Origin: Ignavibacteriota bacterium
GTDB taxonomy: Bacteria; Bacteroidota; Ignavibacteria; Palsa-1295
DNA: 64,000 nucleotides
Direction of reading: 5' to 3'
Assembly (NCBI GenBank): GCA_003151825.1
Contig: PLYO01000041.1
Coordinates: 1-64,000 of the forward strand
A model generated the notes under the pieces. It was given only the letters and a program-made list of their open reading frames with translations. It was not told the origin of the DNA and ran no database searches. A program made the translations under genes and the position numbers. Shown piece after piece: positions 15,682 through 50,563 of the stretch. The first letter of the stretch is position 1. Every line of letters begins with the position of its first letter.

Positions 15682-16950
15682 TCACCTCTTCACCACCGGC
15701 AGCGTCTCCACCTGCCCATTCATCCGCACGAGACATTCATACATCCCCGTGGTGCAGGCATCCTTGCCTGCATCCCAGGTGAAGGAATGCTCTCCCGCAC
15801 CCAGCTCACCCGTTAGAAGCCGCGCAACCTCCACGCCAAGCATATTCACAATGGATACCTCCGCATACCCCGCAGCTTGCGGGGTGAAGGAGATTGTTGT
15901 GGACTGCGAGAGGGGATTGGGGTAACTTTGAATTGAATTTTGGATCGGAGTGATTTGCGAAACATCGCTTATTCCGAAATCCGAAAGCGGGCGGCGCCAG
16001 ACGCCGTTATACGCAGTCCAGGTGTTATACGCAGTCCCGGCAAAGAGGTTCGTGCCGATCACCGCAAAGGCATCAACAGAATAAGAAGCTCTCGTCAATC
16101 CGGCAGTGTCCGCCCTCCATGTTGTGCCGCTGTCGGCCGAGAAATAAAGGCCGTTGTAAGTCCCGGCAAAGAGATTCGTGCCGATCACCGCAAAAGCATA
16201 GACATAAGCGTTCGCTGGCAACCCGGTACCCACCGACCTCCAGCTTGTACCGTTGTCGGTCGAGCGATAAACGCCATCATAGTGAGCCGCGGCAAAGAGA
16301 TTCGTGCCGATCGCCGCAAGGGCTGTGACATAAGCGTTCGCTCCCATGCCGTTAGTGTCCGCCCTCCAGCTCGTGCCGTTGTCGGTCGAGCGATAAACGC
16401 CGTTGCCGGGAGTCCCGGTAGTCCCGGCAAAGAGATTCGTGCCAATCACTGCAAAGGCATAGACATGATCGCTCGCTGGCAATCCAGTATCCGCCACCCT
16501 CCAGCTTGTGCCGTTGTCGGTGGAGAGATAAACGTCGCCGATTGTCATGGCAAAGAGATTCGTGCCGTTCACCGCAAGGGCAGGGACATAAAGGCCATTG
16601 CCGCCCGTCAAGCCGGTCCTCGCCGCCCTCCAGCTTTTGCCGGTGTCGGTCGAGCGAAAAACGCCGCTGCCGTCAGTCCCGGCAAAGAGATTCGAGCCGA
16701 TCACCGCAAGGGACCAGACATACTGCAATCCCATGCCCATGGTGTCCAGCGTCCAGCTTGCGCCGTTGTCGGTCGAAAGATAAACGCCGCCATTAGTCCC
16801 TGCAAAGAGATTCGTGCCGATCACCGCAAGGTCATGGACATCACTACCCTCATACGGTCCATTCGTTTGCACCCACTGCGCGCGCGCGGCGGGCGCGGAG
16901 GTGAGCGCGAGCAAAAGAATCGAAGCCAGGAGGATGAGTTTTGGTTTCAT
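15682..16950 (-). CDS. Secreted beta-propeller (BNR/YCF48-like) repeat protein with T9SS sorting domain
   Basis: Repeated VIGTNLFAGT...STDNGTSWRA units; C-terminal AGYAEVSIVNMLGVEVARLLTGELGAGEHSFTWDAG; start trimmed to MKPKLILLAS. Confidence 0.85.
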   Translation of the reverse strand: MKPKLILLASILLLALTSAPAARAQWVQTNGPYEGSDVHDLAVIGTNLFAGTNGGVYLSTDNGASWTLDTMGMGLQYVWSLAVIGSNLFAGTDGSGVFRSTDTGKSWRAARTGLTGGNGLYVPALAVNGTNLFAMTIGDVYLSTDNGTSWRVADTGLPASDHVYAFAVIGTNLFAGTTGTPGNGVYRSTDNGTSWRADTNGMGANAYVTALAAIGTNLFAAAHYDGVYRSTDNGTSWRSVGTGLPANAYVYAFAVIGTNLFAGTYNGLYFSADSGTTWRADTAGLTRASYSVDAFAVIGTNLFAGTAYNTWTAYNGVWRRPLSDFGISDVSQITPIQNSIQSYPNPLSQSTTISFTPQAAGYAEVSIVNMLGVEVARLLTGELGAGEHSFTWDAGKDACTTGMYECLVRMNGQVETLPVVKR

Positions 16951-19317: not shown

Positions 19318-19416
19318 CTACACCGGTGCCGGTGCCGGTTCCACACACAGCAAAGGTTCCGGCATCACCGCAAGCGCGGCGAAGAAGGTGGGCGCGAGAA
19401 GCCGTTTCGTGAGCAT
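19318..19416 (-). CDS. Signal-peptide-like micropeptide, terminal copy of cassette repeat (MLTKRLLAPTFFAALAV...)
   Basis: Shares ~48 nt with copies at 20042, 20400, 21033, 21609 and 47070. Confidence 0.4.
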   Translation of the reverse strand: MLTKRLLAPTFFAALAVMPEPLLCVEPAPAPV

Positions 19417-19430
19417 GGGAACGTTAACTT

Positions 19431-19664
19431 TTATGCTGCGAGGCGAAGGTCGGCGAGAACCGGGATACTCCAATCGCTGCTTTGTTCCATTCGCTTGCTG
19501 AAAAAGAGAATTTCGAGATTCTCCACGGCATTCGTTGTCGGGTTCAGACGCACGACGATCTCGTCCTCCAGCATCTCGGACTCCTGCCCGAGATAGGGTT
19601 CGCAGTTATTGATATAAAGAATGTCGCCGGTGCGATCGTAGTGGAATTTTAGCCGTGTGTCCAT
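19431..19664 (-). CDS. DUF2283-family protein (antitoxin-like)
   Basis: MDTRLKFHYDRTGDILYINNC...EDEIVVRLNP; overlaps upstream nuclease-like gene by 16 nt. Confidence 0.75.
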   Translation of the reverse strand: MDTRLKFHYDRTGDILYINNCEPYLGQESEMLEDEIVVRLNPTTNAVENLEILFFSKRMEQSSDWSIPVLADLRLAA

Positions 19665-19984
19665 AATGGTATTCCCTTCGGTTGATATCGTGAAATAAAA
19701 GCGGTAATAACCCAGTTTCGTTCGCTCGATGATATTACGATAACGACCACCCATTTGCCGCCGTATAGTTTAGCATCCCATCGTCCGAAGATGATCCCGT
19801 CCGCGTCCTTTCGCGATCGTACCACGATGGAGGGATTTTCTATGGTTATTCGAATGGTTTGTACCATTGCGCTCAGCTCCATTGCCTTAAACTCTGGATG
19901 CCCGCTTCGAATGTGGTCGATGCGCTCAGAAGTGAGATGTACGTTCTCGCCGAGGAACGGGCAAGGGAAAAGAGCATCAGACAT
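19649..19984 (-). CDS. Small nuclease-fold (PBECR/DUF4258-like) toxin candidate
   Basis: LTSERIDHIRSGHPEF...GIIFGRWDAKLYGGKWVVVIVISSSERNWVITAFISR; paralog of 20633-20962. Confidence 0.6.
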   Translation of the reverse strand: MSDALFPCPFLGENVHLTSERIDHIRSGHPEFKAMELSAMVQTIRITIENPSIVVRSRKDADGIIFGRWDAKLYGGKWVVVIVISSSERNWVITAFISRYQPKGIPLWTHG

Positions 19985-20042
19985 CTATAGGATGGGTTAG
20001 GGTAGCGAAGAGGATGAGCGCGAAAAGCCGTTTCGGGAACAT
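19977..20042 (-). CDS. Micropeptide MFPKRLFALILFATLTHPIDV, overlaps nuclease start by 8 nt
   Basis: ATG...TGA 21 codons; stop lies within the start of the 19984 ORF. Confidence 0.45.
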   Translation of the reverse strand: MFPKRLFALILFATLTHPIDV

Positions 20043-20053
20043 GGTGGTGTGCT

Positions 20054-20311
20054 TTAGGGCCGGTTCATATTTCGCAGTTGTTCGGAAATCTCGGCGAATA
20101 ATTCGTTTTGCCGTGCTTCGATGCGCTCCGACCGGTCGATGCGGTCTCCTTCGAGGACGAGCAGACGCTCTGTGTTTTCCAGCGCGCGTTCGAGGACTGC
20201 CATTCGCTCATCGTGCATCCCGATTATATCGTGAAGAGCGTTCATTCGCTCATCGTGTTTGATGATCAACTCTTCGATTTTACTTAGACGCCCATTTTGG
20301 TTTGCTTCCAT
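20054..20311 (-). CDS. Coiled-coil hypothetical protein
   Basis: Heptad-rich MEANQNGRLSKIEELIIKHDERMNALHDIIGMHDERM. Confidence 0.55.
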   Translation of the reverse strand: MEANQNGRLSKIEELIIKHDERMNALHDIIGMHDERMAVLERALENTERLLVLEGDRIDRSERIEARQNELFAEISEQLRNMNRP

Positions 20312-20343
20312 AGAAAAAAAACCTCAAATAGTGATACAATAGT

Positions 20344-20400
20344 TCAAGAACCCGCGAGCGCGGCGAAGAGGGGGAGCGCGAGAAGCCGTTTCGGGAGCAT
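20344..20400 (-). CDS. Micropeptide MLPKRLLALPLFAALAGS
   Basis: Complete 18-codon ORF; copy of the cassette repeat. Confidence 0.45.
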   Translation of the reverse strand: MLPKRLLALPLFAALAGS

Positions 20401-20414
20401 GATGAGTTTTATTT

Positions 20415-20648
20415 TTATGCGGCGAGGCGCATTTCGGTCAGGAATGGAAGCGTAAAATCGTTCGTCTGCTTCAGACGCTTCGAGTAGAAGAGAATTTCCA
20501 CATTCTCGACTTCGTTAGTGCCGGGGTTCAGCCGCACGACGACATCGTCGCCAAGCGCCTCCGATTCCTGTTCGGCGTAGGGCTTACACCGGTCGATATA
20601 CAGAATATCGCCGATCTGATCGTAGTGAAACGTTAATCTTCCTGCCAT
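20415..20648 (-). CDS. DUF2283-family protein
   Basis: Paralog of 19431-19664; overlaps upstream gene by 16 nt. Confidence 0.75.
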   Translation of the reverse strand: MAGRLTFHYDQIGDILYIDRCKPYAEQESEALGDDVVVRLNPGTNEVENVEILFYSKRLKQTNDFTLPFLTEMRLAA

Positions 20649-20962
20649 AGAATTTCTCCTTCCGGTACCTCGTGCGAACTATATGCCGTGATAATCCACT
20701 TCCGTTCCGGGTCATCGATTACAACAACAAGCAAGAACGTTCCGTTGTGCAATTCCGGATGCCATTTAACGAATACTATCCCGTGTTTGTCCGTGCTTGA
20801 TGTCTGAATGATTGACGGAGTGCGAAGTGTCTCCAAAATCATCGTTTCCAACTCTTCCGAGGAACCTAAGTCCGAATGCCGGGAAAGAATATGACTTCTG
20901 CGTTCGGATGTCAAAACGACCTCCGTTTTGAAGTATGGTGCATAGAATAATGTGTTATTCAT
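20633..20962 (-). CDS. Small nuclease-fold (PBECR/DUF4258-like) toxin candidate
   Basis: LTSERRSHILSRHSDL...GIVFVKWHPELHNGTFLLVVVIDDPERKWIITAYSSHEVPEGEILW. Confidence 0.6.
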   Translation of the reverse strand: MNNTLFYAPYFKTEVVLTSERRSHILSRHSDLGSSEELETMILETLRTPSIIQTSSTDKHGIVFVKWHPELHNGTFLLVVVIDDPERKWIITAYSSHEVPEGEILWQED

Positions 20963-21033
20963 TCGTTATTCCATCTCATAGCTACCGCGAGCGCGGCGAA
21001 GAGGGTGAGTGCGAGAAGCCGTTTCGGAAACAT
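20959..21033 (-). CDS. Micropeptide MFPKRLLALTLFAALAVAMRWNNE, ATGA overlap with nuclease gene
   Basis: 24 codons; TGA stop overlaps ATG of the 20962 ORF. Confidence 0.5.
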   Translation of the reverse strand: MFPKRLLALTLFAALAVAMRWNNE

Positions 21034-21043
21034 TCTTATGCCA

Positions 21044-21253
21044 TTAGTGCGCATGTTCGAAGGCAACTCGCAATTCACTCGGGTGTGGATAATGGACGTT
21101 CAGCTTTTCGAAGCCGAGAACCTTCCCACTGCCGGACTTCATCACAATGATCTCATCTCCAATTTCCTCTGCCACCGATTCCTGAGCAGGGTCATCGAAC
21201 CAGACAGTCAGCGTCCGTCCGGTTTCATCGTAATAGACTTTTATCTGGTCCAT
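21044..21253 (-). CDS. DUF2283-family protein
   Basis: MDQIKVYYDETGRTLTVWFDDPAQESVAEEIGDEIIVMKSG. Confidence 0.75.
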   Translation of the reverse strand: MDQIKVYYDETGRTLTVWFDDPAQESVAEEIGDEIIVMKSGSGKVLGFEKLNVHYPHPSELRVAFEHAH

Positions 21254-21566
21254 ATTCTATCTCCCTCCTTGATCGCTTCGGTAATATAAGCTGTGACCAA
21301 AAATCCCGATGTTTCGTTCAACTCTTTAACTACCGCGCAGACCCAGCGTTTAGAACGCACGGTCGGTAAAAAAGATACACCGAGGGGTCGCTTTTGCTTT
21401 GGCGAATCTCTTCGGGATCTTGAATGGTGGCGCGGACAAGCTCTTCTTGTCCTTCCATGACCGGATGCTTTTGGGTGGTGATCGTGCGCCAATACGCTTT
21501 CGTTACTCGCACGTTGAACCCAAGCGGCGTATCGACCTCAAAGAGAATATCGTCCTGGGTTATCAT
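21241..21566 (-). pseudogene. Nuclease-fold (PBECR/DUF4258-like) toxin candidate with apparent frameshift
   Basis: N-part MITQDDILFEVDTPLGFNVRVTKAYW...DPSVYLF (frame of 21330-22022) joins C-part LPTVRSKRWVCAVVKELNETSGFLVTAYITEAIKEGDRIW (frame of 21241-21492) at a T6 run. Confidence 0.65.
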
Positions 21567-21609
21567 TAGGGGCGAAGAGGGTAAGTGCCAGAAGCCGTTT
21601 CGGAAGCAT
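21538..21609 (-). CDS. Micropeptide MLPKRLLALTLFAPNDNPGRYSL
   Basis: 23 codons; overlaps start of the nuclease gene by 29 nt. Confidence 0.45.
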   Translation of the reverse strand: MLPKRLLALTLFAPNDNPGRYSL

Positions 21610-21638
21610 GATGTACTGCCCTGAAAAGCCGCGCGGGA

Positions 21639-21675
21639 AGTTGAAAGTGCCCACGGCGGAAGGTAAACTCCGAGT
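21639..21675 (-). promoter_or_regulatory. Leader element GGCACTC-N-TTACC-N-GGGCACTTT
   Basis: Same spaced blocks as 45814-45851 and 47004-47042. Confidence 0.5.
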
Positions 21676-21690
21676 GCCGAAATGGCGACC

Positions 21691-45521: not shown

Positions 45522-45813
45522 TTATCCCTTATTCGTGCTTTCCCGTTTGCGCTTCAAATAGGGGAAATCGACGCTAAACCCTTTATTATCAAAGGCTTCA
45601 CATAAATTTAATACAATAAGAACCCCATTTGCCTTTTTCAGCGCGGGCCTTTAACCGAAAGGAGGGCAGGATTGTTCCATAGGTGTCTGAACCGGGATTT
45701 GTGGGATGTGTGGGATGTATGATTTGCGTGTAAACCGGGTTTTTAACCCGGTTCAAAATTTGCACTGGGTTGAAACCAGCATCGTCGGCGATGCGTGGTG
45801 TACACCAATTATA

Positions 45814-45851
45814 AGGCACTCATTATTACCCCACTCACCTGGGCACTTTTG
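45814..45851 (+). promoter_or_regulatory. Leader element copy A (AGGCACTCATTATTACCCCAC...GGGCACTTTTG)
   Basis: Direct repeat of 47004-47042; 25 bp upstream of DUF4258 ORF. Confidence 0.6.
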
Positions 45852-45875
45852 AGATAAATCCCACCTTACTCAGCT

Positions 45876-46142
45876 ATGCGAGAAATTAATCTTCCGATTC
45901 GGCTAACAAAACATGCCGACGAGCAATGCCACGAACGAGGCGCTACGGAGGATGAAGTTCGTGAAGCGATTCTTTTCGGCGAGTGGGAGGAAGTCAAGAA
46001 TGGAAGAACGATCGCAAAGTTGAATGTGCAATTCGGTAAGACATGGGCGGGAAATATGTATCCAATTAAACAGGTCGCGCCGGAGTTCGTTATAGAAGCA
46101 AGGGAGATCGTCGTGATAACAGTTTATACTTTCTATTTTTAA
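45876..46142 (+). CDS. DUF4258-family toxin-like protein
   Basis: LTKHADEQCHERGATEDEVREAILFGEWEEVKNGR...EIVVITVYTFYF. Confidence 0.8.
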   Translation: MREINLPIRLTKHADEQCHERGATEDEVREAILFGEWEEVKNGRTIAKLNVQFGKTWAGNMYPIKQVAPEFVIEAREIVVITVYTFYF

Positions 46143-46163: not shown

Positions 46164-46385
46164 ATGAAGATCAGCTACGATAAAGAAGTCGATGCGCTCT
46201 ACATTCGCTTGCTCGAAGGCGAGCAGCAGTCGCGTACCCTGCGGTTGACGGATGAAGTCGCGCTTAACATCGGGAACGAGGAGCAGCTTATCGGCGTCGA
46301 AATTTTAGACGCAAAAAATATTCTCGGGCATGGCCAGCTTCCGAAGCTCCTCATCGAGAATATCAATTTTGCAGTTGCGCCGTAA
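46164..46385 (+). CDS. DUF2283-family protein
   Basis: MKISYDKEVDALYIRLLEGEQQSRTLRLTDEVALNIGNEEQLIGVEILDA. Confidence 0.88.
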   Translation: MKISYDKEVDALYIRLLEGEQQSRTLRLTDEVALNIGNEEQLIGVEILDAKNILGHGQLPKLLIENINFAVAP

Positions 46386-46421: not shown

Positions 46422-46736
46422 ATGTTTGAAAAAATCCGAGAATGCTTCAAGCGGCAAGCTGTGATTTTTTCGAAACATGCTGCAATGGAAATGGAGTATG
46501 AGCCGCTCGGTGAGATATTGACGCAAGATGTATACGATGCCGTGTTGTTCGGCGAATGCCTTCGGGAGTATGAGGACGATAAGCCCCTGCCATCGTGCCT
46601 TATCTTTGGATGGGTAGGCAACCAAAGGCCCATTCATGCCGTTTGCGGATACGATGCGGAGCGGGACAGGGCGGTCGTGATAACCGTCTATGAGCCGCAT
46701 CCAAATTTGTGGATAAATTTTCGTGAAAGGATCTAA
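46422..46736 (+). CDS. DUF4258-family toxin-like protein
   Basis: VIFSKHAAMEMEYEPLGEILTQDVYDAVLFGECLREYEDDKPLPSCLIFGW...AVVITVYEPHPNLW. Confidence 0.88.
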   Translation: MFEKIRECFKRQAVIFSKHAAMEMEYEPLGEILTQDVYDAVLFGECLREYEDDKPLPSCLIFGWVGNQRPIHAVCGYDAERDRAVVITVYEPHPNLWINFRERI

Positions 46737-46992
46737 AAAGATGAAATGTGTCGTATGCCACGGCGAGGACATTCAGGAGCAGCACGTCGAAGAAGAGATG
46801 CGCAGCGGGAAGGACATCGTCCTTGCTCCGGTCACCTGTCTTGTCTGCCAAACATGCGGCGAACGCTATTTCGATACTGCAACGATGCGGCGTCTCGAAA
46901 CGCTGCGCGCCGAACTTCGTTCCGGAACGATTGCCCTGAAACAGATCGGTAAAGTGCTGGCGATTGATCCCGTTTTCGCCAAAGCGGCGTAA
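46723..46992 (+). CDS. YgiT-type zinc-finger antitoxin candidate
   Basis: MKCVVCHGEDIQ...VLAPVTCLVCQTCGERYFD; overlaps upstream DUF4258 gene; start likely 46741. Confidence 0.88.
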   Translation: MKGSKKMKCVVCHGEDIQEQHVEEEMRSGKDIVLAPVTCLVCQTCGERYFDTATMRRLETLRAELRSGTIALKQIGKVLAIDPVFAKAA

Positions 46993-47003
46993 GTGCGTGA
47001 TTT

Positions 47004-47042
47004 AGGCACTCATAATTACCCCACCCCACGCGGGCACTTTTG
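47004..47042 (+). promoter_or_regulatory. Leader element copy B
   Basis: Aligns to copy A over 38-39 bp with few mismatches. Confidence 0.6.
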
Positions 47043-47069
47043 CCCGAACAGGTTCCTTTCATTCCTGCC

Positions 47070-47147
47070 ATGAACCCGAACCGCTTCCTCGCGCTTGCCC
47101 TCTTCGCCTGGCTTGCCGCCGCGCCCGCCGGCGAAGCCGGAACTTAG
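47070..47147 (+). CDS. Truncated signal-peptide ORF MNPNRFLALALFAWLAAAPAGEAGT
   Basis: Sixth copy of the micropeptide repeat, opposite strand from the 19-21 kb array. Confidence 0.5.
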   Translation: MNPNRFLALALFAWLAAAPAGEAGT

Positions 47148-47173
47148 CCTTCTGAAAAAGCTTTTCCAACACA

Positions 47174-47222
47174 AGCCCGTTTGCCAGCATGTAATTGCGC
47201 AAGCGGGCTATTTTGTTTTTTC
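47174..47222 (+). terminator. Intrinsic terminator
   Basis: AGCCCGTTTGC...GCAAGCGGGCT stem followed by ATTTTGTTTTTT. Confidence 0.75.
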
Positions 47223-47254
47223 TATTACTTGTCATTTCTATTTCACAAAACCAC

Positions 47255-48385
47255 ATGAAAAAAGGTTACATCTCCTTCATCGAAATTCTGCTTCTTGCTT
47301 CGGCGCTTCTAACCGGATGCAGCCACTCGACGCAAGTGACGAATAACACGACGAATTCATCAGGGCCGTGGGTTGTAACTGGCTCCGACCCAATGGTTCC
47401 GCTTACGGTGATTGATTCGACGGGAGAAACCCTCTCAGCGATTCTGGATACTTCCGCCAACTCGATAATCGGATGTGTCTATAGAGATGCGCAAAATGAT
47501 ACGGCCGTGATTTGGATAGGCGACAGTGCGTTGCCCTCAAAAGCCGTTATTGGGAACTACGAGTTCCTATTCGCGAATTACACTGATAGTAGTGTTGACA
47601 TCGCCATAACGGATACGGCCGGTGACATCGGAATAGCTCAAAACATGAATATCGGTGCCGCATTACAAGCATCGAGCATCCATACTAATAAGTTAGGTAT
47701 TGCCTTCAAAAAAGGTGGGGCTATTCCATTGGACTTGACCGAGACAATAAGTAAAATTTTCGAAGTAATCTATCAAGATCTGGCTGCTACATTGTGTGCA
47801 GCGGCAGCCATGGAGGCGGCGAAGATTGTAGTCGACGCCATAATAGGTTCGGCACTCACACCAGGAGGAGGGATACTTGCGACGCCTTTAGCTCTACTTT
47901 TGCCTGCAATTGCAATACTCGGGGAAGGTTGCGAAGAAGCATTTAAAGAGGCGTGGCCGGAAATCGAAAAACTCATAATGCAAATTGGAACTTCTAATCC
48001 GGCCGCCAGCCCTTCAACACCCGTCATGCAACCTCAGAAACCTTGGATGAATGCTAATTCGCTAGATCAATACATTAGCAATATGGGACCATATTGGCAA
48101 GCTGCTATAACCGGTACTGATTCGGTCTGCCAATTCAGCACTTTTGCAAGTGGGAATAACCCAGACCAGTATTTCGCTCCTAATGGTGGCATACAGGGTT
48201 TTCCTTTTACAGATACCTTATGCCAAGGTGTCTATGGTCACTTTTCAGTCGTTGGGAATGCAAACTACTCAATAGTCACCACTCCTTACCGCAAATATGT
48301 AACGTTCTCTACCTATGACGGAGAGGTAATCAGCGGAGGCGCAGGTTTAATGTCATGTAAAGCTGTCGGCTCCTTCCGTCAGTAA
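47255..48385 (+). CDS. Hypothetical lipoprotein
   Basis: MKKGYISFIEILLLASALLTGCSHS lipobox; internal hydrophobic Ala/Gly segment. Confidence 0.65.
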   Translation: MKKGYISFIEILLLASALLTGCSHSTQVTNNTTNSSGPWVVTGSDPMVPLTVIDSTGETLSAILDTSANSIIGCVYRDAQNDTAVIWIGDSALPSKAVIGNYEFLFANYTDSSVDIAITDTAGDIGIAQNMNIGAALQASSIHTNKLGIAFKKGGAIPLDLTETISKIFEVIYQDLAATLCAAAAMEAAKIVVDAIIGSALTPGGGILATPLALLLPAIAILGEGCEEAFKEAWPEIEKLIMQIGTSNPAASPSTPVMQPQKPWMNANSLDQYISNMGPYWQAAITGTDSVCQFSTFASGNNPDQYFAPNGGIQGFPFTDTLCQGVYGHFSVVGNANYSIVTTPYRKYVTFSTYDGEVISGGAGLMSCKAVGSFRQ

Positions 48386-48591
48386 AAAATTGGAGCTTTG
48401 TACCCGAAAACCGAATCCGAATCAACTTCTCATGCAGAACTTCCTTCCAGAAATTCCAAGCTTGCGATGCCATTTGATTTGCGGCTACAACAGAACCGTT
48501 CGATAGCCTGACTCTGGAGCCGGAGCAACAGCAGCGGCGGCCCGCGCTTGGCGCGTGGCACGAAACCGGCCTGCAAAACCGTTAAGATATT

Positions 48592-48828
48592 ATGACAACA
48601 ACCTTTCGATTGGCGGCGAACGAACTCGATCAAACTTTTCTCGATCGCGTAAAAGCGATGTTTCGGGAGAAGCAGGTCGCTATTGTCGTTTATGAGGAAA
48701 ATTATGCAGCCAATTTAACCCACGCTCAGGCAAACGGCGCGGCGACCTACCGCGAGCGTGCCCGCGCCCTTCGCGGCGCCGCTAAAGGGATCGATACAAC
48801 CGTCGAGCGAGATGACGACCGGGTATGA
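48592..48828 (+). CDS. Antitoxin of VapBC-type module
   Basis: MTTTFRLAANELDQTFLDRVKAMFREKQVAIVVYE; ATGA overlap with PIN gene. Confidence 0.75.
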   Translation: MTTTFRLAANELDQTFLDRVKAMFREKQVAIVVYEENYAANLTHAQANGAATYRERARALRGAAKGIDTTVERDDDRV

Positions 48829-49205
48829 ACGTCGTAGATTCATCCGGATGGCTCGAATACTTCGCAGACAGCCCGTTGGCATCTGAGTTTGCTGCTGCAA
48901 TCGAGGACGCCGAGCATTTGATCGTCCCGTCAATTTCGATTTATGAAGTCAATAAGCGGCTCCTCGCGCAGGGCCGCCATAGTGTCGCGGCCGACGCCAT
49001 GATTCTCATGCAGGGTGGGCGCGTCATCGGCCTCGATCCTTCTCTTGCAATCGAAGCATCGAGGCAAGCTGTGACCAACAAGCTACCGCTTGCCGATAGC
49101 ATCATCTACGCGACGGCAATCCAACACTCCGCAACCATTTGGACGACGGATTCCCATTTCAAGGGACTGCCTAACGTCGAATACAGAGAGAAAGCTGGCA
49201 AGTGA
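48825..49205 (+). CDS. VapC-type PIN-domain toxin
   Basis: MNVVDSSGWLEYFADSP...LPLADSIIYATAIQHSATIWTTDSHFKGL. Confidence 0.92.
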   Translation: MNVVDSSGWLEYFADSPLASEFAAAIEDAEHLIVPSISIYEVNKRLLAQGRHSVAADAMILMQGGRVIGLDPSLAIEASRQAVTNKLPLADSIIYATAIQHSATIWTTDSHFKGLPNVEYREKAGK

Positions 49206-49380
49206 TATTTGACTGCCCAACCCTTCTAAAAATACTTGAGTTGAAAATTACAATACCACCATTAGATTCGCAGCTATAACAGAACCGTTCGATAGCCTGT
49301 CTCTGGTGCCGGAGCAACAGCAGCGGCTGCTCGCGCTTGGCGCGTGGCACGAAACCAGCCTGCAAAATCGTTAAAATGAT

Positions 49381-49626
49381 ATGACAACGACCTTCCGGCT
49401 GCAGCCGGGTGAACTAAATGAAAGCTTTTTAGAAAAGCTGCGGGCGATGTTTCGAGACCGCGAATTGGAAGTAGTCGTCCATGAAACGGACGAGGAAACC
49501 GAGGCAGACTATCCGTTCGATAATCCCGCGCAAGCGAAATTTCTCGAACAGGAAATCCGGCATGTCGAGAATGGCGGCGAGATGGTCAGAGTCACGCTCG
49601 ATGATTTGCGATCGACGGCACGATGA
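49381..49626 (+). CDS. Antitoxin of YoeB-type module
   Basis: MTTTFRLQPGELNESFLEKLRAMFRDRELEVVV; ATGA overlap with toxin. Confidence 0.8.
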   Translation: MTTTFRLQPGELNESFLEKLRAMFRDRELEVVVHETDEETEADYPFDNPAQAKFLEQEIRHVENGGEMVRVTLDDLRSTAR

Positions 49627-49880
49627 GGAATTTTGCCTTTACGCCGCGAGCCTTCGCGGAGTTCAACGAATGGTCCCAACTCGATCCAGAAATTCATCGG
49701 AAGATCGTTCGCCTTCTTGAAGATATTACACGGCAGCCATTTACGGGGCTTGGCAAGCCGGAGCCATTGAAGGGTCAATTCAGAGGCCGCTGGTCGCGAA
49801 GGATTACGCAGACAGATCGTCTCGTTTATCAAGTAAACGATGAAGAGATTGTGATTTTCTCCTGCAAGGACCATTACTAA
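49623..49880 (+). CDS. Txe/YoeB-family toxin
   Basis: FTPRAFAEFNEWSQLDPEIHRKIVRLLEDITRQPFTGLGKPEPLKGQFRGRWSRRITQTDRLVYQV...CKDHY. Confidence 0.93.
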   Translation: MRNFAFTPRAFAEFNEWSQLDPEIHRKIVRLLEDITRQPFTGLGKPEPLKGQFRGRWSRRITQTDRLVYQVNDEEIVIFSCKDHY

Positions 49881-49930
49881 CCTTCCAGCGCCTTCACGCC
49901 CGGCAGCACTTTTCCTTCCACTCGCTGCGG

Positions 49931-50188
49931 CGGGCAACGCCATCCGCAGCTGCCCCAATCTTCTCGCAATCTACGGAGATCGCGTTTACATCCGCCACTG
50001 CGGGCTATGCGGAAGTATCGGTGGTGAATATCTTAGGCGCGTCCGTAGCGCATCTGTTTTCCGGTGAGTTAGCTGCGGGCGAGCATGATTTCGCGTGGGA
50101 TGCACAAGGGATGGCGCCGGGAAGTTATTGGTGCGTTGTGCGAATGGGCAATAGCGTGGAGCGGGTTGCGCTATCGGTGCAGCGGTGA
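49931..50188 (+). pseudogene. Orphan T9SS C-terminal sorting domain (gene remnant)
   Basis: QSTEIAFTSATAGYAEVSVVNILGASVAHLFSGELAAGEHDFAWDAQGMAPGSYWCVVRMGNSVERVALSVQR*; homologous to C-terminus of 15682-16950. Confidence 0.8.
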
Positions 50189-50190
50189 TT

Positions 50191-50493
50191 GTCTGAACCA
50201 TGATTTGGGGCGATTTCAGAGATTAAGGAGATGGGGATTAAGAGGGTATAGAGTGTCATGTCATCCTGAGCGGAGTTCTTTCCGACGAAGGAGGAAAGAA
50301 CAGAGTCGAAGGATCTCCGGACGTTCACCAGTAAGCGAAACTACATGAGATCCTTCGACTCCGCAAAATTCCGCAGTCGCTACGTTTTGGCCCAGAGGGC
50401 ACCCTGCTCAGGATGACAGGTTGAGATGATATTCTTTTACTCAAATTCCCCATCTTTTTAATCTCTGAAATCGCCCCAAATCAAGGTTCAGAC
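50191..50493. repeat. Nested palindromic element: outer GTCTGAACC... arms around inner GTCATCCTGAGCGG...ATGAC
   Basis: Outer arms share TGATTTGGGGCGATTTCAGAGATTAA; inner element 50260-50417. Confidence 0.85.
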
Positions 50494-50563
50494 ATTCCCC
50501 TCCCCGTGAACTCCCTTCCTCTTATAGTAGTTTGCCGCCACTTGCCACAATGACCACCCCCAA

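Follow-up and report, generated by a model that had tools for sequence, protein, structure and literature searches.

Accessory genes between the probable surviving ends of a T9SS BNR-family locus: one case of a layout that recurs in the genus Kapaibacterium

Chromosomal integrons carry cassette arrays rich in toxin–antitoxin genes, in which small, mostly promoterless modules stand in tandem behind one promoter-like leader and are separated by a short recurring sequence. The arrays described here share this organization, but they come with no integrase over the cut-off and no attC-like core or fold, and the sequence that recurs in them belongs to a host gene, as the coding end of a T9SS or other gene. 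Mobile promoters, or horizontal regulatory transfer, place the same upstream region before unrelated genes, whereas here the repeated piece takes in the coding start, and gene 3′ ends are repeated too. Our literature searches returned nothing on point for mobile promoters as such or for toxin–antitoxin cassette arrays in Bacteroidetes. The Vpma genes of Mycoplasma agalactiae form a surface-protein multigene family that is reported to rearrange at a common 5′ end (PMC2268961); here, by comparison, we found no recombinase, the repeats are direct, and the cargo consists of unrelated accessory genes rather than family bodies. In homology-facilitated illegitimate recombination, foreign DNA is anchored through a single homologous arm and joined at its other side without homology (PMC3240628). 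The joint at 47138/47139 of our locus is of this kind, but the arms here are the ends of a multi-copy gene family, tandem units accumulate, and in this group the process is a putative one.

The window, a stretch of 64,000 nt analysed as a whole, corresponds to bases 1–64000 of contig C11 of a metagenome-assembled Kapaibacterium genome (3.59 Mb in 51 contigs, estimated contamination 6.6%), which was compared with six congeners, giving a set of seven genomes. Intact members of the T9SS family concerned begin with the same signal peptide, followed by BNR repeats and a C-terminal domain (CTD), and some of them pass the TIGR04183 model of the T9SS CTD (cut-off 23 bits). Across the genus, family genes are preceded by a leader of ~75 nt (consensus GGCACTC..CCCT..GCGGGCACTTT..CGCTTT.AATGG..ATC-ATG), which together with the signal peptide makes a unit of ~125 bp. 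A signal-peptide model found 16 copies at E < 1e-7 in the source genome, and R2, a genus model of leader plus signal peptide, found copies in six of the seven congeneric genomes, with signal-peptide flavours that are genome-specific. In the most probable reading, the signal-peptide ORF at 47070 and the CTD remnant at 49939–50188 are what survives of a locus of this family in which accessory genes have replaced the central part, one instance of a process that recurs in the genus. The features of the window that bear on this reading are the following.

15682–16950, minus strand: intact T9SS protein with BNR repeats, a family member lying downstream of the second array (TIGR04183 26.9 bits vs 23)
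19366–21689, minus strand: second array, leader plus five truncated signal peptides (ATG at 21609, 21033, 20400, 20042 and 19416)
45809–45870, plus strand: promoter-like leader copy without signal peptide, running into the DUF4258 start codon (R2 match E 0.0027, model positions 8–69)
45876–46142, plus strand: DUF4258 gene (PF14076 E 1.6e-5, 25.5 bits vs cut-off 25)
46164–46385, plus strand: DUF2283 gene (PF10049 E 7.5e-13)
46422–46736, plus strand: second DUF4258 gene (PF14076 E 2.4e-18)
46741–46992, plus strand: MqsA/YgiT-like antitoxin (TIGR03831 E 9.8e-8, over cut-off)
46996–47069, plus strand: conserved leader 5′ of the T9SS signal peptide (nhmmer 46996–47117 E 9e-21; R2 46997–47117 E 1.8e-19)
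47070–47147, plus strand: truncated signal-peptide ORF of 25 codons (C5 homology ends at 47138)
47139–47254, plus strand: start of the foreign segment, homologous to the region 5′ of a lipoprotein paralog on contig C43 (69% alignment from 47139)
47255–48385, plus strand: lipoprotein gene, 376 aa (46% identity over 304 aa to the C43 paralog)
48470–48591, plus strand: copy 1 of direct repeat D1, 5′ of the first antitoxin-like ORF (83% to 49259–49433)
48592–48828, plus strand: antitoxin-like ORF of a VapBC-type pair (assigned by position and by the start it has in common with the ORF at 49381; no Pfam match)
48825–49205, plus strand: PIN-domain (VapC-type) toxin (PF01850 E 2.5e-15)
49259–49380, plus strand: repeat 5′ of the second antitoxin-like ORF, copy 2 (D1 repeat comparison)
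49381–49626, plus strand: antitoxin-like ORF of a YoeB pair (assigned by position and by the start it has in common with the ORF at 48592)
49623–49880, plus strand: YoeB-family toxin (PF06769 E 3.9e-30; TIGR02116 over cut-off)
49882–49918, minus strand: pgk 3′-end fragment, antisense to the toxin–antitoxin genes (95% over 37 nt to pgk at C11:186272–187486)
49939–50188, plus strand: orphan T9SS CTD remnant (84% identical in DNA to its counterpart in an intact C5 protein)

The sequence-only reading had described a signal peptide that stops after 25 codons, an orphan T9SS CTD on the same strand with no start of its own, and a lipoprotein gene, a VapBC-type and a YoeB-type module between them, all of which held up, with matches for both ends that lie well outside chance expectation. 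The ORF from the ATG at 47070 reads MNPNRFLALALFAWLAAAPAGEAGT and ends at a stop codon at 47145–47147, and the CTD frame stays open to 50188, with homology to its intact paralog from 49939. The PIN and YoeB toxin genes each stand directly behind a small antitoxin-like ORF, as in type II toxin–antitoxin pairs, whereas the DUF4258 and DUF2283 genes are putative toxin–antitoxin cargo, assigned by domain only. The 376-aa lipoprotein gave no Pfam, NCBIfam or PADLOC match. Since the ATG of the first DUF4258 gene, at 45876, directly follows a second leader copy, we take the island to begin earlier than the signal peptide, spanning ~45.8–50.2 kb. The D1 repeat has a third, partial copy at C27:117014, and the pgk fragment lies within the 58-nt gap between the YoeB stop and the CTD remnant; a second antisense pgk match, at 48441–48466, was too weak to rely on (81% over 26 nt, E 3.6). 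The two antitoxin-like ORFs have the same start (48592–48690 and 49381–49480, MTTTFRL..ELxxxFLxxxxAMFR), different C-termini and different toxins, and the antitoxin thus looks as if it were modular.

Comparisons within the genome bear on whether the two ends belong together. The signal peptide has its best DNA matches on contig C5 (91%, E 1e-26 and 8e-22), and so does the CTD remnant (E 3.9e-71); these C5 matches lie within 2.7 kb of each other, and the next-best in-genome matches are much weaker (E 2.4e-6 for the signal peptide, 4.2e-21 for the CTD). That the closest relatives of both pieces sit at one locus supports their being two ends of one gene family locus. The same signal peptide opens intact BNR and CTD proteins of 707 and 714 aa, which places the fragment in the family. 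The CTD remnant alone scores 15.1 bits and the C5 CTD 19.0, both below the TIGR04183 cut-off, and the assignment of the remnant as a T9SS CTD therefore rests on paralogs with homologous CTDs that pass it (26.9 and 38.9 bits). The left joint is base-exact: the signal-peptide match runs up to 47138, and the match to the C43 lipoprotein locus takes over from 47139. Between the signal peptide and the CTD of the window we found no remnant of a BNR body; a control region gave 13 matches.

The further claim, that a T9SS gene had its body interrupted or replaced, stands in part. It gains support from the C5 relatives of both ends, the exact left joint, the lack of a BNR body between them and parallel loci on contig C27 and in genome G005. 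The check proposed for it, an uninterrupted ortholog with signal peptide joined to CTD, came back negative at the position next to topA in the six congeners. TopA was identified in each of them, and the region 5′ of its gene holds no signal peptide, CTD or toxin–antitoxin island; nor do the six congeners contain an empty site of the window locus. As they offer no intact ortholog, we infer gene-body replacement from paralogs and parallels. The C5 locus reads, in order, signal peptide, DUF4160/DUF2442, signal peptide, a 250-aa PDC-S31-like protein and an intact T9SS protein. The latter carries its own, different signal peptide, preceded by the two orphan ones, an order that makes a chain of unit insertions possible as against one replacement. 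The best reading of these comparisons remains that both ends once belonged to one gene locus; their ancestor here may have been a locus of several units and not a single intact gene. A one-off interruption of one gene does not account for the island, because truncated leaders recur in arrays.

Truncated leaders stand before accessory genes in ~20 cases in five congeneric genomes (G000, G001, G002, G005 and G006), often in tandem arrays, and leader copies with ORFs of ≤45 codons are about as frequent as intact ones. In the second array of the window (minus strand, 21.7–19.3 kb), small accessory genes follow each of the first four signal peptides. Further truncated leaders occur twice on C5 and at C17:6.1 kb, and one on contig C74 of G006 is accompanied by DUF4258, a DUF4160-type pair and a 916-aa protein (L083 11468–14215), which is similar to the defence protein Dsr1 (PADLOC E 3.5e-14). 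G001 and G002 both show leader plus truncated signal peptide, toxin–antitoxin pair, second signal peptide and T9SS gene. The signal-peptide fragments end at varied points, between +33 and +72, so the crossover is not directly visible. We also considered whether the signal-peptide mini-ORF is translationally coupled to the gene that follows, and set this aside: the several −4/−8 overlaps look striking, yet the frequency of starts within −20 to +15 (11/18) does not differ significantly from that for the two alternative frames (14/36; one-sided P 0.10), in a set that includes L141, whose start codon offset was one base off.

The 3′ side shows a corresponding pattern. CTD remnants begin 0–20 nt past the stop codons of accessory genes, namely an HTH gene on C21, a DNA-methylase-domain protein on C9, the C43 lipoprotein, a C27 gene and an antitoxin in G005. 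On contig C198 of G006 (L155), four CTD fragments lie in ~5.5 kb and may form an array of units bounded by CTDs. The whole layout of signal peptide, accessory genes and CTD remnant is present at three loci in two species. Besides the window, these are C27:24.2 kb, with signal peptide, TPR lipoprotein, another gene and CTD remnant, and contig C76 of G005, with leader plus truncated signal peptide, DUF4258-like gene, MqsA-like gene, CTD remnant and leader.

Such cargo is found at the ends of other genes too. In G003, three copies of a Gfo/Idh oxidoreductase 3′ end (80–92 nt, 89–92% identical, including L183 3395–3486 and 4197–4279 in minus-strand numbering) flank and separate a family-A toxin–antitoxin pair and a VapBC pair, and on C43 a Bro-N-like gene has its 3′ end repeated ahead of both a DUF4926 gene and the lipoprotein gene. 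Close members of toxin–antitoxin families A and B stand at such gene ends in 8/8 cases from five genomes, with chromosomal neighbours that vary by species. Exact joints at module start or stop codons are seen in the pattern as a whole. The fetched loci of distant homologs of the two families contain no leader or CTD.

The recurrence of this layout across the genus, which is the new part, suggests that foreign genes dock at the conserved ends of the family. Accessory modules, mostly of toxin–antitoxin and defence type, are repeatedly found right behind a truncated leader or right before a CTD remnant, and these leader/signal-peptide and CTD ends, common to a large gene family, would serve as homology arms. 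The mechanism we favour is general homologous recombination via the family ends, whether by unequal exchange or by the uptake of end-bearing DNA, and modules landing behind a T9SS leader may be retained because the leader expresses them. A bolder formulation, which we put forward tentatively and regard as fairly unlikely to hold, is a gene-cassette system that works without an integron integrase: the ends of a secreted-protein family, and of a few other genes, would act as docking sites and expression leader, and arrays of promoterless toxin–antitoxin and defence modules would be gathered and passed between loci and species. If family ends are docking sites, accessory and defence genes can pile up and find expression with no integrase dedicated to them, signal peptides and T9SS sorting domains that stand alone would be scars with a readable history, and the genus offers a concrete place to seek gene-capture mechanisms in Bacteroidota relatives.

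Among the alternatives, the two pieces could be independent remnants, with a dispersed leader module before toxin–antitoxin genes on one side and, on the other, the 3′ remainder of another T9SS gene that decayed and lies downstream by chance. Leaders with truncated signal peptides often have no CTD behind them, and orphan CTDs without leader exist on C9 and C21; we nevertheless consider this origin unlikely, because both pieces have their closest relatives at the single C5 locus and the same pairing returns on C27 and in G005. Plain decay, in which modules inserted at random into dispensable T9SS genes and only insertions near the ends are recognisable now, would fit the clear pseudogene copies at C27:81.6 kb (L071) and on contig C74 of G006 (L083 15107). 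Simple insertion would not, however, produce gene-end fragments repeated beside each module, and the joints cluster either no more than ~72 nt from the start codon or immediately at the stop codons of accessory genes, which makes this explanation distinctly improbable. That the assembly or binning of a fragmented, partly contaminated metagenome-assembled genome created the island is hardly credible, given that several independently assembled genomes show the same architecture with their own signal-peptide flavours.

A site-specific recombinase that moves promoterless cassettes and recombines them at signal-peptide sequence, as in an attC-less integron, would explain why unrelated modules stand in arrays under one leader with the same ~50-nt sequence between them and why module homology begins exactly at the toxin ATG. 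We judge it about as improbable as plain decay, since the 3′ ends of the repeats vary and the same toxin–antitoxin family also lies between repeats of a quite different gene end (Gfo/Idh). An integron proper was rejected on three negative searches, which also count against such a recombinase: the integron integrase model TIGR02249 scored over cut-off in 0/7 genomes, with weaker matches also in 14/14 control genomes; an attC-like core (GTTRRRY/RYYYAAC) was absent from 7 joints; and the 4 sites folded as single strands showed nothing unusual (z-scores −1.5 to +1.2). No fixed crossover site was found. As regards a transposon with target-site duplication, the repeats beside the modules vary in length from about 30 to 90 nt.

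Small inverted-repeat sequences were also seen next to or within family genes. Palindromic MITE/REP-like pieces (GTGTGGCGCATGCTTAAGCTTGCGC...) lie within signal-peptide sequence in three species (L083 2901, L085 1846 and L146 1749). Directly 3′ of the CTD remnant of the window, an element at 50184–50500 has 61-nt inverted ends that are 87% complementary, and a similar end (CTGAAATCGCCCCAAATCA) is located just 5′ of the leader of an intact T9SS gene on C17.
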